The translations under genes and the position numbers were made by a program. The notes under the pieces are model-generated. The model saw only the letters and a program-made list of their open reading frames with translations, had not been told where the DNA came from and made no database searches. This document shows, in pieces, positions 7,010-46,988 of a stretch of 64,000 nt of DNA. Source of the DNA: Streptomyces ruber (GTDB taxonomy: Bacteria; Actinomycetota; Actinomycetes; Streptomycetales; Streptomycetaceae); contig NZ_BMQK01000001.1 in assembly GCF_014648075.1 (NCBI RefSeq), forward strand, positions 992,001 through 1,056,000, read 5' to 3'. Each line of letters opens with the position of its first letter. Position 1 is the stretch's first letter.

Positions 7010-7269
7010 CCACCCAGCGTAGTTACGCCGGAAGCACCGTTGAGCGCGAAGGTGCTCAACTACGCCGTCCGGGGCGACGGGCGGCCCTCCACGGTGTGAT
7101 GTCCGTCATGTGAGACGTGACGCGCGTTACTTACCGGTCACAAGGCCTCTCACGAGCGCTAGTGTCCGCCAGAGAGGCCCCTCGACCGCTCGGCGCCGCC
7201 GCACGGGGGGACACCCACCGAAGTTCCAGCGTGCAAGCGCTCGTGCGATCGTTCAAAGAGGAGTCGATA
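7010..7269. promoter_or_regulatory. Divergent promoter region, adenosyltransferase / hydroxyacyl-CoA dehydrogenase
   Basis: This 260-base region lies between two divergent genes. It holds an inverted repeat GTTGAGC-8-GCTCAAC (7039-7060) 30 bases upstream of the adenosyltransferase start, a candidate operator. A second pair, GGCCTCT (from about 7145) and AGAGGCC (ending about 7186), lies in the likely leader of the dehydrogenase. TCACAA followed 16 bases later by TAGTGT (about 7138-7165) is a possible promoter for the dehydrogenase. No cobalamin-riboswitch-like block was recognised by eye. Confidence 0.4.
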
Positions 7270-8118
7270 GTGGCACGGAAGCTCGCCGTCATCGGAGCCG
7301 GACTCATGGGGTCCGGTATCGCCCAGGTCTCCGCGCAGGCGGGCTGGGACGTCGTCCTGCGCGACGTCACCGACGAAGCCCTCACGCGCGGCACCGACGG
7401 CATCAAGGCCTCGTACGACAAGTTCGTGGGCAAGGGCCGGATGGAGGCGCGCGACGCCGAGGCCGCCCTGGCGCGCATCACGCCCACCACCGACCTGGAC
7501 GCCGCCGCCGAAGCGGACGTCGTCGTCGAGGCGGTCTTCGAGAAGCTCGACGTGAAGCACGAGATCTTCCGCACGCTCGACAAGATCGTGCGCGCGGACG
7601 CCGTGCTCGCCTCCAACACCTCCGCCATCCCGATCACCAAGATCGCGGCGGTGACGGAGCACCCCGAGCGCGTCGTCGGCACGCACTTCTTCTCGCCCGT
7701 GCCGATGATGCAGCTCTGCGAACTCGTCCGCGGCTACAAGACCAGCGACGAAACCCTCGCCACCGCCCGGGAGTTCGCCGAGTCCGTCGGCAAGACCTGC
7801 ATCGTCGTCAACCGTGACGTGGCCGGCTTCGTCACCACCCGGCTCATCGCCGCCCTCGTCGCCGAGGCCGCGAAACTCCACGAGTCGGGCGTGGCCAGCG
7901 CCGAGGACATCGACCTCGCCTGCCGGCTGGGCTTCGGGCACGCCATGGGCCCCCTGGCCACGGCCGACCTCACCGGCGTGGACATCCTGCTGCACGCCAT
8001 GAACAACATCTACACCGAGTCGCAGGACGAGAAGTTCGCCCCGCCGGAGCTGATGCGCCGGATGGTGGATGCCGGTGACATCGGCCGCAAGAGCGGGCAG
8101 GGCTTCTACAAGCACTGA
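7270..8118 (+). CDS. 3-hydroxybutyryl-CoA dehydrogenase
   Basis: This 282-residue NAD(P)-dependent 3-hydroxyacyl-CoA dehydrogenase interconverts acetoacetyl-CoA and 3-hydroxybutyryl-CoA. The Rossmann motif is at residues 9-14 (VIGAGLMGSGIAQ). SNTSAIPITKIA and the His of GTHFFSPVPMMQL contribute the catalytic Ser and His, and NRDVAGFVTTRL the conserved Asn. The C-terminal half is the helical dimer domain (GFGHAMGPLATADLTGVDI). The GTG at 7270 follows AAAGAGGAG; the reading frame is open further upstream but without a matching ribosome site. With the thiolase (24886-26088) it can supply C4 acyl-CoA for butyryl- and isobutyryl-CoA metabolism. The next 100 bases are AT-richer than average. Confidence 0.93.
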   Translation: MARKLAVIGAGLMGSGIAQVSAQAGWDVVLRDVTDEALTRGTDGIKASYDKFVGKGRMEARDAEAALARITPTTDLDAAAEADVVVEAVFEKLDVKHEIFRTLDKIVRADAVLASNTSAIPITKIAAVTEHPERVVGTHFFSPVPMMQLCELVRGYKTSDETLATAREFAESVGKTCIVVNRDVAGFVTTRLIAALVAEAAKLHESGVASAEDIDLACRLGFGHAMGPLATADLTGVDILLHAMNNIYTESQDEKFAPPELMRRMVDAGDIGRKSGQGFYKH

Positions 8119-8147
8119 GCGGCCGTCGACCGCAGCTCGGTGAGAAA

Positions 8148-8243
8148 GTGAAAGAAGGTCAGCTTTCACACTTTGAGCTGAAATCGGTGTCGACTCGCTT
8201 ACAAGGGGCAACCTCTGGGGTTCTTGACGACGTCAGAGGTTGC
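8148..8243 (+). promoter_or_regulatory. Inverted repeats upstream of the STAS gene
   Basis: Two inverted repeats are visible. GTGAAAG (8148-8154) pairs with CTTTCAC (8163-8169). A perfect 10-bp pair, GCAACCTCTG (8208-8217) and CAGAGGTTGC (8234-8243), has a 16-base centre containing TTGACG. The second ends 46 bases before the STAS start. The first could be a weak terminator for the dehydrogenase gene, and the second an operator or leader hairpin. No regulator is assigned. Confidence 0.5.
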
Positions 8244-8289
8244 ATCACCGACAACGACCGGTGCGGACACGCACTCGCGGGGAGCGCAT

Positions 8290-8613
8290 ATGTTCATCAG
8301 GGGCGACCACGCCGAGCTGGTCGTCGGGGGCCGCCTCGACGTACGCAGCGCGGCGGACGCCCGTACGGTCCTGCACTCGGCCGTCGACGACGGAGCCGGC
8401 GACCTGGTGCTCGACCTGTCACAGCTGGACTCCTGGGACGCCACCGGACTCGGCGTGATCATGGGCGTCCACCGGCGGGCCGGACGGTGCGGGCGGCGGC
8501 TGGTGCTGCGTGACGTACCGCCGCAGATGCAGCGGCTCCTGGTCGCCACCCGGCTGCACCGGATCCTCGCCATCGAGGGCGGTATTGGAGTGGAGTCGCT
8601 GCCCCGCGTGTGA
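8290..8613 (+). CDS. STAS-domain protein (anti-sigma-factor antagonist-like)
   Basis: This 107-residue single-domain STAS protein is of the SpoIIAA/RsbV type. Family members bind anti-sigma kinases and are switched by phosphorylation of a Ser or Thr. The domain fold is evident from GDHAELVVGGRLDVRSA, then VLDLSQLDSWDATGLGVI. The residue at the switch position is Thr in DATGLG. I chose ATG at 8290, preceded by GGGGAG, rather than the TTG at 8224 that lies inside the inverted repeat. The C-terminus resembles RsbV-type Streptomyces STAS proteins (LVLRDVPPQMQRLL). No anti-sigma factor or sigma gene is adjacent, so its partner is probably encoded elsewhere. Confidence 0.85.
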   Translation: MFIRGDHAELVVGGRLDVRSAADARTVLHSAVDDGAGDLVLDLSQLDSWDATGLGVIMGVHRRAGRCGRRLVLRDVPPQMQRLLVATRLHRILAIEGGIGVESLPRV

Positions 8614-44188: not shown

Positions 44189-44824
44189 ATGGGTTCCACG
44201 CCTCGTGGCGGAACCAGATGGAAGCGGTTCGCTGTGGTCATGGTGCCCAGCGTCGCCGCGGCAGCGGCGGTGGGCATCGGGCTGGCGCAGGGCGCGCTCG
44301 CGGCGTCATTCACTGTGTCGGGTCAGGAGTTCAAGGTTGCGGCCGGGCATCTCGAGGGCCATGGCTTCTCGCAGTACGGCGGAGTGGTCGAGGGATACGA
44401 GACCGTCGAGGGCGGGAAGAAGGTCCCGCGCCCTGTCGCGATCTCGTCGTTCGACCGCGCCGAGATCAATGATCTCTGTCAGTCCCTCGCGACGGAGGTC
44501 CCGCTCCTCGGGACCGTCTACATGCGTATCGACGCGGGCAACACCCAGGGGGAGCCGGTCGAGGCGACCCAGCTCTACCTGGACATAGCCAAGCTCGAAG
44601 CCGACGCGACGTTCACGAACATGGACATCGGTGTGGCCGTCAAGGACAAGACCAGGGGCCCCGCGAGGGCTTCCGGCGTGAAGGACGGCCAGTTCTCCCA
44701 GCAGGCGGAACTGGCGGTGCTCGACAACGCCGAACAGACGGCGTGGGCCACCACCGCAGGCACGTTCACCCTGAGGGGACTGAACCTGCGACTCGGCACC
44801 GACCCCAAGATGGAATGCTTCTGA
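44189..44824 (+). CDS. DUF6230 family exported protein
   Basis: This 211-residue protein has an N-terminal export signal or anchor (RWKRFAVVMVPSVAAAAAVGIGLAQGALAA, about residues 10-39) and a beta-rich extracellular domain (FTVSGQEFKVAAGHLEGHGFSQYGG to TFTLRGLNLRLGTDPKMECF). Older annotations call such proteins cholesterol esterase, but no hydrolase motif (such as GxSxG) is present. Two cysteines (in NDLCQSLA and MECF) could form a disulphide. The ATG at 44189 has a strong GAAGGAGG site. It is followed by DUF6114 and acidic-repeat genes on the same strand, a set I recall as recurring in Streptomyces. Confidence 0.85.
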   Translation: MGSTPRGGTRWKRFAVVMVPSVAAAAAVGIGLAQGALAASFTVSGQEFKVAAGHLEGHGFSQYGGVVEGYETVEGGKKVPRPVAISSFDRAEINDLCQSLATEVPLLGTVYMRIDAGNTQGEPVEATQLYLDIAKLEADATFTNMDIGVAVKDKTRGPARASGVKDGQFSQQAELAVLDNAEQTAWATTAGTFTLRGLNLRLGTDPKMECF

Positions 44825-44944
44825 CGGTCCCCGTCGCGCCCCGGGCGGGGAGGTCCGCTCCCCGCCCCTCGCGCATCTCCCCCCTTCCCCCCTACGGCAT
44901 GACCCCGGCACGCACGTCCGCCGGACCCAGGGAGCTGTTTTTCC

Positions 44945-45451
44945 ATGAGTGCTGATACTCCGGTCCAGAGCGCGAGCGCCGGGATCCTCACCCGGATCCG
45001 TCTGCGCTTCCGCGACTGGCGGGGCAGCCGGCCGTTCTGGGCGGGGCTGTTCACCTTGCTCGCCGGGGTGCCGATCGCGTACTTCCCGTACGCCACCCTC
45101 AACCTGGGCCACATCTCGATAGCCCTGGCGACCACCGGTGGAGCCGGCTCCCTGATCATCGGCGTGCTGTTGGTGACGCTCGGCCTGACCATGTGGTTCC
45201 AGCAGGTCATCCGCGTCTTCGCCGGTGTCGCCGCGATCGTGCTGTCACTGGTCTCGCTGGTGGTGTCCAACTTCGGCGGCTTCGTGATGGGCTTCCTGCT
45301 CGCCATGATCGGCGGTGCCCTCTCCATCGCCTGGGCACCGGGCCGGGAGGAGCCGCCGGCGACGGCCGCGGACGCCGCGGACGGCGACGCCCACGAAGCG
45401 GCGGGTACCGCCCCGGCGAACGGCACCCCCGGGAGGCGGAATGACGACTGA
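44945..45451 (+). CDS. DUF6114 family membrane protein
   Basis: This 168-residue protein has four membrane helices. It begins with a basic cytoplasmic part containing the family segment FRDWRGSRPFWAGLFTLLAGVPIAYFPY. Helices over about residues 32-52, 58-82, 86-106 and 110-130 follow (VVSNFGGFVMGFLLAMIGGALSIAWAPG), with an Ala/Asp/Glu-rich tail. It has no known function. ATG at 44945 is preceded by AGGGAGCTG. Its 3' end overlaps the next gene by 11 bases. It probably forms a unit with the DUF6230 protein and the acidic-repeat protein. Confidence 0.87.
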   Translation: MSADTPVQSASAGILTRIRLRFRDWRGSRPFWAGLFTLLAGVPIAYFPYATLNLGHISIALATTGGAGSLIIGVLLVTLGLTMWFQQVIRVFAGVAAIVLSLVSLVVSNFGGFVMGFLLAMIGGALSIAWAPGREEPPATAADAADGDAHEAAGTAPANGTPGRRNDD

Positions 45452-46988
45452 CGAGGAGGCCCTCGGCGCTCCGGCGCCGGATTCCGGTACGGGGTCCGGG
45501 CCGCGGCACGCGGTGTTCCGGAAACCGTTCCTCGCGCGGTTGCAGGTACCCGCGGGCAAGGCGATGGCCCTGGCGGCGATGCCGACGGCGGTCCTCATGG
45601 GCATGGGCATCGCACCCGCGCTCGCCCGGGCCGACGACAAGGCGACGACCTCCCGGAGCCTGACGCTGGAGGAGTACCAGAGCTGCGTCGAGATCCTGGA
45701 GGAGGCCCGGGACGACGCGGAGTCGGAGGACGGCGAGAAGAAGGACGAGGAGAAGCCGGAGGAGACCGAAGAGGACGGGGAGGGCGAGGAGGACGGGCAG
45801 GACGACCAGGGCGGGCGGAACGAGAAGGCCCCGGTCGTGCCGTCGCCCTCGGTCTCGTCGAGTGTCCCGGCGGCCGGCGGCAGGGAGGAGCAGAGCTCCC
45901 CGGGCGGCTCCCCGCCGGACGAGGACTCCCCGGGCGACGGCTCCCCGGAGGACACGTCCCACGAGGGCGGCGAAGCCGCGGACGGCGGCTCTTCGTCGGA
46001 TTCAGGTTCCGACGACGAGACCGGGTCCGCACCGGCTCCGGCTCCGGTCCCGACCGCGCCGGACGGGTCCTCGCAAAGCGGCGACCGCCCGCGGATCCCC
46101 GGGCTGTCCGACCTCGGCGACGCGCTCGAAGGCCTCGGCAGTGCGCTCGAGGACGTGCTCACGCCCCGGGCGGGGGAGTCCGCCTCCCCGTCCGCTCCGG
46201 CCGACGAGGACACCGCGGAACCGGCCGAGGGTACGGCGGACGAGGCCACCGGCACCGGGGAGGAGCCCGGGAAGCGCGCGGCGCAGGACGTCACCGGGGA
46301 CGTGGCCGCTCCGGTGACCGAGCCGGCGCCCGAGCCGGAGGCGGACGCCACGGCGCCGGTCGCGGAGCCGGACGGGGAACCGGCCGAAGAGCCCGCCGAG
46401 GAGCCGGCCGGCGAGGTCACCGCGTCGCCGAGCACGAGCACCAGCCCCGGCCCCGGTTCCGGCCCCAGTCCCAGCCCCACCCCGTCCGAGACCTCCACCA
46501 CCGACCCGGACGACTGCCCGGTCGCCACCGACGCGGAGGGCGGCCTGGAGCAGGACCTCCCGGCGCTGCCCGACGCCCCCTGGTACCTGGACGCCGGCTC
46601 GCTGCTGCTCAAGGGCGCCGACTACCAGGGCATCGTGCAGGTGCGGACCGCGAACGGCACGGTCAAGAAGGTGCTGAAGTACGTCATCTCCGACGGCACC
46701 GACATCGGCGACCTGCACCAGACGGTCCGTGACGAGCGGACCGGCAAGCTCTACCACGTGCAGGCGGGCGAAGGCACGACCTCCACCATCCGCGACGGCG
46801 ACACCGTGATGTACACGGAGTCGATCTCCGGCAAGCTGCTGGGCCTCGTCCCGGTCGAGTTCAGCCCGGAGAATCCCCCGCCGCTGGACATCCCCGTCAT
46901 CTACTTCACCGATGTCCGGGTGGTCCAGGCCGGCCAGTTCGGCGGCACGCTCCACATTCCCGGGCTGCGGCAGTACGTGACGGACTAG
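45441..46988 (+). CDS. Acidic low-complexity surface protein with a conserved C-terminal domain
   Basis: This 515-residue protein has a basic N-terminus and a hydrophobic helix (about 42-62, MALAAMPTAVLMGMGIAPALA) acting as a signal peptide or anchor. About 310 residues of Glu/Asp/Pro/Ser/Gly-rich low-complexity sequence follow. The compact C-terminal domain (about 385-515) includes WYLDAGSLLLKGADYQGIVQV, LKYVISDGTDIGDLHQ and GKLLGLVPVEFSPENPPPLDIPVIYFTDV. That domain looks like the conserved functional part, while the acidic region looks like a flexible wall spacer. ATG at 45441 with GGGAGGCGGA inside the end of the DUF6114 gene indicates coupled translation. No catalytic motif is recognised. 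Confidence 0.83.
   Translation: MTTDEEALGAPAPDSGTGSGPRHAVFRKPFLARLQVPAGKAMALAAMPTAVLMGMGIAPALARADDKATTSRSLTLEEYQSCVEILEEARDDAESEDGEKKDEEKPEETEEDGEGEEDGQDDQGGRNEKAPVVPSPSVSSSVPAAGGREEQSSPGGSPPDEDSPGDGSPEDTSHEGGEAADGGSSSDSGSDDETGSAPAPAPVPTAPDGSSQSGDRPRIPGLSDLGDALEGLGSALEDVLTPRAGESASPSAPADEDTAEPAEGTADEATGTGEEPGKRAAQDVTGDVAAPVTEPAPEPEADATAPVAEPDGEPAEEPAEEPAGEVTASPSTSTSPGPGSGPSPSPTPSETSTTDPDDCPVATDAEGGLEQDLPALPDAPWYLDAGSLLLKGADYQGIVQVRTANGTVKKVLKYVISDGTDIGDLHQTVRDERTGKLYHVQAGEGTTSTIRDGDTVMYTESISGKLLGLVPVEFSPENPPPLDIPVIYFTDVRVVQAGQFGGTLHIPGLRQYVTD

Follow-up and report, generated by a model that had tools for sequence, protein, structure and literature searches.

A DUF6230-DUF6114-G3 gene set of Streptomyces as a candidate envelope module for water-insoluble lipids and hydrocarbons

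Streptomyces ruber carries three consecutive forward genes whose products may form an envelope module for compounds that do not dissolve in water. The genes lie in the window analyzed here, a 64,000-nucleotide stretch of contig NZ_BMQK01000001.1 (positions 992,001 to 1,056,000), and encode an exported DUF6230 protein (P0001), a DUF6114 membrane protein (P0002), and a long acidic protein that we term G3 (P0003). DUF6230 and DUF6114 are the core of this set, and G3 is an extension of DUF6114. We put about an even chance on the proposal that the set handles water-insoluble lipids and hydrocarbons (acyl esters, sterols, isoprenoids, alkanes) and delivers them to the membrane. DUF6230 would then serve as an exported β-sheet carrier, soluble or loosely held at the surface, which might also hydrolyze esters; the C-terminal domain of G3, reaching through the wall on its acidic linker, would receive or dock DUF6230; and DUF6114, as the membrane partner, would admit the cargo into the bilayer for catabolism. 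Inward rather than outward traffic is part of this proposal, as are cargo binding and docking, and each should be regarded as conditional.

Linkage of the three genes

The linkage of the set is the firmest part of the argument. DUF6230, DUF6114, and G3 each occur in all 121 Streptomyces genomes (121/121). Among the named Streptomyces loci, which are the best 80 of 539 confirmed, 77 have the three genes in order and the remaining three stop at a contig end; in 71 of the 80, the order continues into pyk, the pyruvate kinase gene. With every family found in all 121 genomes and with this recurrent neighbor beside the set, the candidate explanation that the window locus is a mobile element or accessory acquisition is rejected.

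Beyond the genus, a draw across the class recovered DUF6114 in at least 76 of 345 genomes (72 above the cut-off) and the G3 domain in at least 62 of 345; at most 13 DUF6114 and 11 G3 candidates were scored per genome, such that absences are to be read as upper bounds. At every one of 69 G3 places, DUF6114 lies 0.46-1.8 kb upstream on the same strand. The reverse does not hold: at up to 48 of 117 DUF6114 places there was no G3 match within 3 kb, although one of these 48 (G087 C19, locus L074) carries a weak G3 in the comparison of diverse loci. G3 is therefore the dispensable part. That comparison covered 40 diverse loci, and DUF6230 adjoins DUF6114 in all 40, 20 of which had been chosen on DUF6114 matches alone. 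Twenty of the 40 loci yielded a G3 match, and 16 of these 20 encode DUF6114, the linker, and G3 as a single protein. Because the pair is adjacent throughout, while G3 is found in half of the loci and is mostly fused, we regard the pair as the core and G3 as an extension of DUF6114; the existence of a single DUF6114-G3 protein in 16 of 40 diverse loci implies contact between the two. One such fusion, at locus L204, is preceded by mutase-like and thioredoxin genes, as the separate genes are in Streptomyces, and for that reason is probably the Streptomyces locus with genes 2 and 3 undivided. A sequence-only reading of this DNA had proposed one linked cell-surface unit. Frequent separation of the genes in other genomes was looked for and not seen, and the linkage and fusion counts bear the proposal out in the form of a linked extracytoplasmic unit.

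The pair also reaches beyond the class of the window. In a phylum-level draw of 246 genomes, the DUF6230 family PF19741 was found in 16 and the DUF6114 family PF19609 in 18, and members of family f18 carry the pair outside Actinomycetes. More distant still is the haloarchaeon Natronococcus sp. AD-5, in which both DUF6230 (38.7 bits) and DUF6114 (90.9 bits) score above the Pfam cut-offs. Immediately after the pair, on a plasmid (L270, ~7115-8407, + strand), comes a gene whose exported product combines a small N-terminal part with a very long acidic repeat, a reversal of the order of parts in G3. The same 12.5-kb stretch holds an AMP-binding, acyl-CoA-ligase-like gene and an acyl-CoA dehydrogenase fragment. 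In Bacillus subtilis, a DUF6114-like signal in a control search stayed below the cut-off.

Some genomes multiply the set. S. ruber itself has a second, diverged DUF6230-DUF6114-G3 set (G000:C12:164176-165598, locus L002) downstream of a polyprenyl synthase gene, whose top NCBIfam match is the family 2 encapsulin cargo polyprenyl transferase at 357 bits, below the cut-off of 450. Loci L066, L202, and L203 are clusters in which three DUF6230-like and two DUF6114 genes occupy ~5 kb.

Sequence and predicted fold of the three proteins

The first two proteins are secure members of their families. P0001 scores 171.3 bits against PF19741, where the gathering cut-off is 27.5, and P0002 scores 117.8 bits against PF19609, where it is 27.9. 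DUF6230 opens with an export leader whose GGTRWKRFA motif recurs in 79 of 80 named loci, and its cleavage site, placed by analogy with the sequenced N-termini of the Geobacillus proteins P21 and P16, is likely the one given in Table 1. The mature protein gives an AlphaFold 2 (AF2) model that is nearly all-β, with strands of up to 23 residues, a single helix of at least four residues, and a mean predicted local distance difference test (pLDDT) score of 86.8. Leader and model together agree with the sequence-only description of an exported β-rich protein. DUF6114, previously described as a four-helix membrane protein, has four hydrophobic peaks, which start at residues 31, 69, 91, and 113.

G3 is the least familiar of the three: P0003, of 515 aa, matched nothing in Pfam or NCBIfam at E ≤ 1, and a sequence search found nothing for it in the PDB. 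Its one N-terminal hydrophobic segment (residues 43-61) is either a retained anchor or a cleaved signal, and carries the motif AMPTA[VL][LIV][MV]G in 71 of 80 named loci. Conservation of this motif and of the DUF6230 leader appears to exceed what would be expected of a plain signal. The following linker has 76 D/E, 14 K/R, 40 P, and 38 S over 294 residues. Behind it lies the domain that is present in all 121 Streptomyces genomes and is modeled by AF2 as all-β with a mean pLDDT of 91, so that the portrait of a long acidic protein ending in a conserved domain holds, now with a predicted structure for that domain. A conserved amphipathic helix in the linker was considered and dropped; its motif occurred in 0 of 61 sequences, and a repeat look gave the N-terminal membrane helix instead (25 rows of 61).

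Neither β-domain resembles a known structure in the comparisons made. By sequence, P0001 gave one chance-level PDB match (E 0.32), and Foldseek returned no PDB match at E ≤ 0.001 for either model. Fold comparison covered ~1000 PDB chains per model, and its best results were unconvincing both for DUF6230 (Z 2.9, root-mean-square deviation (rmsd) 6.3, 66 residues aligned) and for the G3 domain (Z 2.4, rmsd 5.1, 78 aligned); at that coverage, the lack of a listed match is no proof of a new fold. The two domains may, in turn, resemble one another. Aligned with hhalign, profiles from diverse sets of DUF6230 and the G3 domain gave a probability of 35% (E 3.9e-4, 125 columns), which is suggestive but not decisive, whereas profiles from Streptomyces-only sets gave 0.4% and no alignment.

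Evidence for cargo and the esterase label

What such a set might carry is indicated by the neighbors and the expression of its relatives. For comparison, loci were grouped by eye, from gene spacing, into types B, C, and "other", and the neighbor queries were picked after loci L073, L074, L083, and L192-L198 had been read. CYP125, a steroid C26-monooxygenase (1.8e-159 to 2x5l), adjoins the DUF6230-DUF6114 pair, along with a thiolase, in 7 of the 22 type-B Streptomyces loci, or 6 of 21 once the locus that supplied the query is set aside (728-947 bits). Outside Streptomyces, a cholesterol-oxidase-like GMC enzyme accompanies the pair in 7 of 23 loci (6 of 22 when the query locus is excluded; 1043-1434 bits); all seven belong to family f77, and they also include MerR genes in seven and AurF-like genes in six. 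We call these enzymes cholesterol-oxidase-like because three of them score 553-586 bits against the NCBI cholesterol oxidase model, below its cut-off of 850. None of 19 control stretches contained CYP125 or a cholesterol-oxidase-like gene. Sterol loci are thus shared with the pair in part of Streptomyces and in f77, but the window locus has no sterol enzyme alongside.

Two further neighbors recur. A gene for a MerR-like regulator is found close to the pair in 12 of 22 type-B loci (L211-L221 and L223; 140-162 bits), in 7 of 23 non-Streptomyces loci (the f77 loci L191-L196 and L198, one of which supplied the query), and in 0 of 19 controls. Near the pair in all 16 type-C loci (15 of 15 if the query locus is set aside; for example, L080:9678-10328) is a gene for a small exported protein of no Pfam family.

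Other neighbors are single cases. In Streptomyces genome G067, a gene for a squalene/phytoene synthase fused to a cis-prenyltransferase begins where the DUF6114 frame ends (L073:8742-10652, + strand); MPAB/rubber oxygenases adjoin the pair in L073 and L074; and a fatty-acid desaturase lies in the L066 cluster. Since the queries were chosen after such loci had been read, the squalene-synthase, MPAB, and polyprenyl-synthase cases are anecdotes rather than tests.

A second line of evidence comes from Geobacillus thermoleovorans, whose P21 and P16 are described as induced by long-chain alkanes, predicted to have signal peptides, and recovered in the insoluble membrane fraction (PMC2676291). The same 2009 report likened their N-termini to the Streptomyces lavendulae cholesterol esterase, a likeness that was then set aside. 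GK2770, the P21 orthologue of G. kaustophilus, is numbered next to the alkane monooxygenase GK2771 in a β-oxidation cluster, and AlphaFold models of P21 and P16 are described as a large β-barrel with an N-terminal helix (PMC10867098). We scored the published peptides against every window of the open reading frames of 16 loci (221,325 windows for P21-N; 222,348 for P16-N). For each of these two N-terminal peptides the top six windows were mature DUF6230 N-termini, from L069-L072, L077, and L270, that is, from f18 and the haloarchaeon. Similar size, export leader, and mature N-terminal motif align P21/P16 (GK2770/GK3040) with distant DUF6230 members, and their internal peptides, discussed below, set them apart.

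The third line is the label "cholesterol esterase" itself. Nishimura and Sugiyama reportedly published in 1994 under a title on a Streptomyces cholesterol esterase gene, and papers of Xiang et al. from 2006 and 2007 are said to bear titles on cholesterol esterases, among them a "novel family of cholesterol esterases". Judging by the name and place of SCO5420, that 2007 family would be DUF6230. SCO5420 of S. coelicolor is named a cholesterol esterase in the literature, and P0001 is, by synteny only, its orthologue, because the order here is DUF6230-DUF6114-G3-pyk and pyk2 of S. coelicolor is SCO5423.

It is from this label that the first rival explanation arises, in which DUF6230 is a true secreted sterol or acyl-ester hydrolase of a new catalytic type, and DUF6114 and G3 merely anchor it or help its export. 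Several published descriptions are in keeping with such an enzyme. Streptomyces cholesterol esterases are described as aggregating and as gaining activity with detergent (PMC3514274); SCO5420 is reported to rise almost 37-fold on Tween 40 relative to glucose (PMC7494193), a response that speaks for the proposed lipid-handling module as well; and the S. scabiei "cholesterol esterase" C9Z6Y6, presumably a DUF6230 protein, is given as 33-39%, the largest share, of lipid-class extracellular protein (PMC5158115). The sequences are less accommodating. An alignment of 56 DUF6230 rows (the window and 55 Streptomyces loci) holds no His at ≥95%, the highest column reaching 33 of 56, although Ser, Gln, Lys, Tyr, Thr, Asp, Trp, Glu, and a Cys pair are kept at that level, both Cys being invariant. 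Across 15 diverse members, invariance is confined to G35, G45, and L129. Because no His column is conserved and only two Gly and one Leu are common to diverse members, a standard catalytic triad is unlikely on sequence grounds. As to the α/β hydrolase fold, the AF2 model is mostly strand rather than helix-rich, and its fold search gave no convincing match. P21 and P16 were judged from their full sequences not to be cholesterol esterases (PMC2676291). The earlier verdict that the label lacks support from motifs thus stands as far as a conserved His is concerned, but it passed over a biochemical literature, and over neighbors and expression of relatives that point to sterols, acyl esters, or hydrocarbons. 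The label, moreover, spans gene 1 only; no description of DUF6114 and G3 as partners of Streptomyces cholesterol esterases was found in the main texts of the literature. On balance, we consider a pure hydrolase unlikely, if worth keeping in view.

A comparably small share of our confidence goes to traffic of the cell's own lipids, whether isoprenoid or acyl (polyprenols, hopanoids, carotenoids), which the module would carry outward or from one envelope layer to another rather than taking nutrients in. The polyprenyl synthase of L002, the synthase-prenyltransferase fusion of L073, and the desaturase of L066 would fit this role, as would the universal presence of the set in the Streptomyces genomes and a DUF6230 promoter in S. 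albulus that is described as of moderate class. The neighbors that recur are nonetheless catabolic (CYP125, cholesterol-oxidase-like enzymes, thiolase), and induction by alkanes and Tween, as reported, is awkward for this reading. A structural or cell-wall assembly without a lipid function is very unlikely: the acidic wall-spanning linker and, in some relatives, a protein with a DUF6230-like stretch and cell-wall enzyme domains beside an LPxTG-like repeat protein speak for it, but the DUF6230-like similarity is weak, 1.6e-6 at best, and the sterol, isoprenoid, and alkane links would be left unexplained.

Uptake of lipids and hydrocarbons through the envelope has its own difficulties, which deserve to be set out together. 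The gene set contains no ATPase, and no PDB match marks DUF6230 or the G3 domain as lipid-binding. The main Streptomyces locus is flanked by genes for thioredoxin and pyruvate kinase rather than by lipid genes. Strong CYP125 and cholesterol-oxidase-like neighbors are absent from all 16 type-C and all 12 "other" loci, weaker matches having been counted as other P450s (five type-C loci at 107-261 bits and one type-B locus at 60 bits); 15 of 22 type-B loci lack CYP125 (one having the weak P450 match), 16 of 23 non-Streptomyces loci lack the cholesterol-oxidase-like enzyme, and in 9 of 12 "other" loci none of the sterol or isoprenoid genes sought was present. CYP125 is present in 87 of 121 Streptomyces genomes, and at least seven of these have it beside DUF6230 in the loci compared, so that most copies are not known to adjoin DUF6230. 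Expression is equivocal as well: proteins known by the label "cholesterol esterase" alone are reported to respond to xylose and xylobiose or to nitrogen (PMC12772271, PMC3087709), and palmitic acid, tributyrin, and trimyristin are reported not to have induced P21/P16 (PMC2676291), which counts against a general fatty-acid role. The Geobacillus comparison is also uneven. Ordinary actinomycete DUF6230 proteins are not within the best eight windows for P21-N or P16-N; peptide P21-37 puts two DUF6230 proteins first (scores of 33 and 32) over a background that reaches 30; and with the internal peptides P21-14 and P21-20 the top match in the open reading frames of the 16 loci was not a DUF6230 protein.

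Should the set indeed carry lipids, it would resemble LptA/LptC, AsmA/TamB, and Mce in combining an extracytoplasmic β carrier with a membrane partner. It differs from them in having no ATPase, and no sequence or fold match joins it to them; we claim no membership.

Locus features, wall-associated relatives, and wider implications

In the window, a methylmalonyl-CoA-mutase-like gene, a reverse-strand TetR-like gene, and a thioredoxin-like gene precede the three forward genes, which are followed by convergent pyk, ackA, and pta; these neighbor names were read off translations, some of them with a profile scan. Coordinates of the set are collected in Table 1. The genes had been described as overlapping, which holds only for genes 2 and 3; a 120-bp spacer separates gene 1 from gene 2. 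An upstream GTG at 45315 opens a longer frame for gene 3, but we judge it the less likely start, since the overlap with gene 2 would become far larger. The spacer stem listed in the table was considered as a conserved regulator and dropped: stems of ≥9 bp occur in the spacer in 25 of 80 loci (the window and 79 named loci) versus 12 of 79 random windows, which gives no general conservation. A stem-loop akin to that of the window is present in a subset of relatives.

Table 1. Features of the DUF6230-DUF6114-G3 set in the window
Feature	Position	Strand	Description
DUF6230 protein P0001	44189..44824	+	211 aa; PF19741 E 1.9e-50; exported, predicted all-β
DUF6230 export leader, residues 1-38	44189..44302	+	hydrophobic peak 14-32; cleavage likely between ALA and AS
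GC-rich 10-bp stem, spacer of genes 1 and 2	44843..44867	+	possible processing or attenuation hairpin, just past the DUF6230 stop codon
DUF6114 membrane protein P0002	44945..45451	+	168 aa; PF19609 E 4.3e-34; four hydrophobic segments
Overlap of genes 2 and 3	45441..45451	+	11 bp, from sequence; possible translational coupling
Gene 3, G3 protein P0003	45441..46988 (from ATG)	+	515 aa; short N-terminal part, hydrophobic helix, acidic linker, C-terminal β domain
G3 conserved membrane or signal helix, residues 41-61	45561..45623	+	AMPTA[VL][LIV][MV]G motif
G3 acidic low-complexity linker, residues 67-360	45639..46520	+	from composition
G3 C-terminal β domain, residues 356-515 as modeled	46506..46985	+	AF2 model

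Some distant relatives place the pair beside wall-associated genes. In three of five f18 loci (L070, L071, and L077), a gene divergent to the pair encodes a protein whose N-terminal stretch is DUF6230-like (E 1.6e-6 to 1e-3); in L070 this protein also has SLT transglycosylase and M23 peptidase domains. There it is accompanied by an LPxTG-like repeat protein (L070:4506-7040 and 7125-7790, - strand), and a similar pair of genes is found in L071.

In the main texts of the literature, we found no paper that treats DUF6230, DUF6114, and G3 together. New here are the three-part module, the DUF6114-G3 fusion, the module's archaeal reach, and the recognition of DUF6230 as a family that would join the Streptomyces "cholesterol esterases" to P21/P16, the N-terminal likeness of P21/P16 to ChoE being the part already on record. 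These observations invite a bolder conjecture, which we advance tentatively and with distinctly less assurance than the lipid-handling role itself: that DUF6230-DUF6114, with or without G3, is an unrecognized and ancient passage system by which water-insoluble hydrocarbons, sterols, and acyl esters cross the envelope in monoderm bacteria and haloarchaea. It would unite the Streptomyces "cholesterol esterases" with the Geobacillus "membrane transporters" in one family, with a fold that matched nothing in the PDB searches, and G3 would be a second copy of the carrier fold, with cargo passing between like domains.

How hydrophobic substrates cross the thick monoderm wall is poorly known outside Mce systems. 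If the conjecture is true, a set present in every sampled Streptomyces, in a haloarchaeon, and probably in Bacillota would offer a testable answer to that question, and two domains of unknown function, a contested naming as "cholesterol esterase", and an orphan protein induced by alkanes would become one problem.

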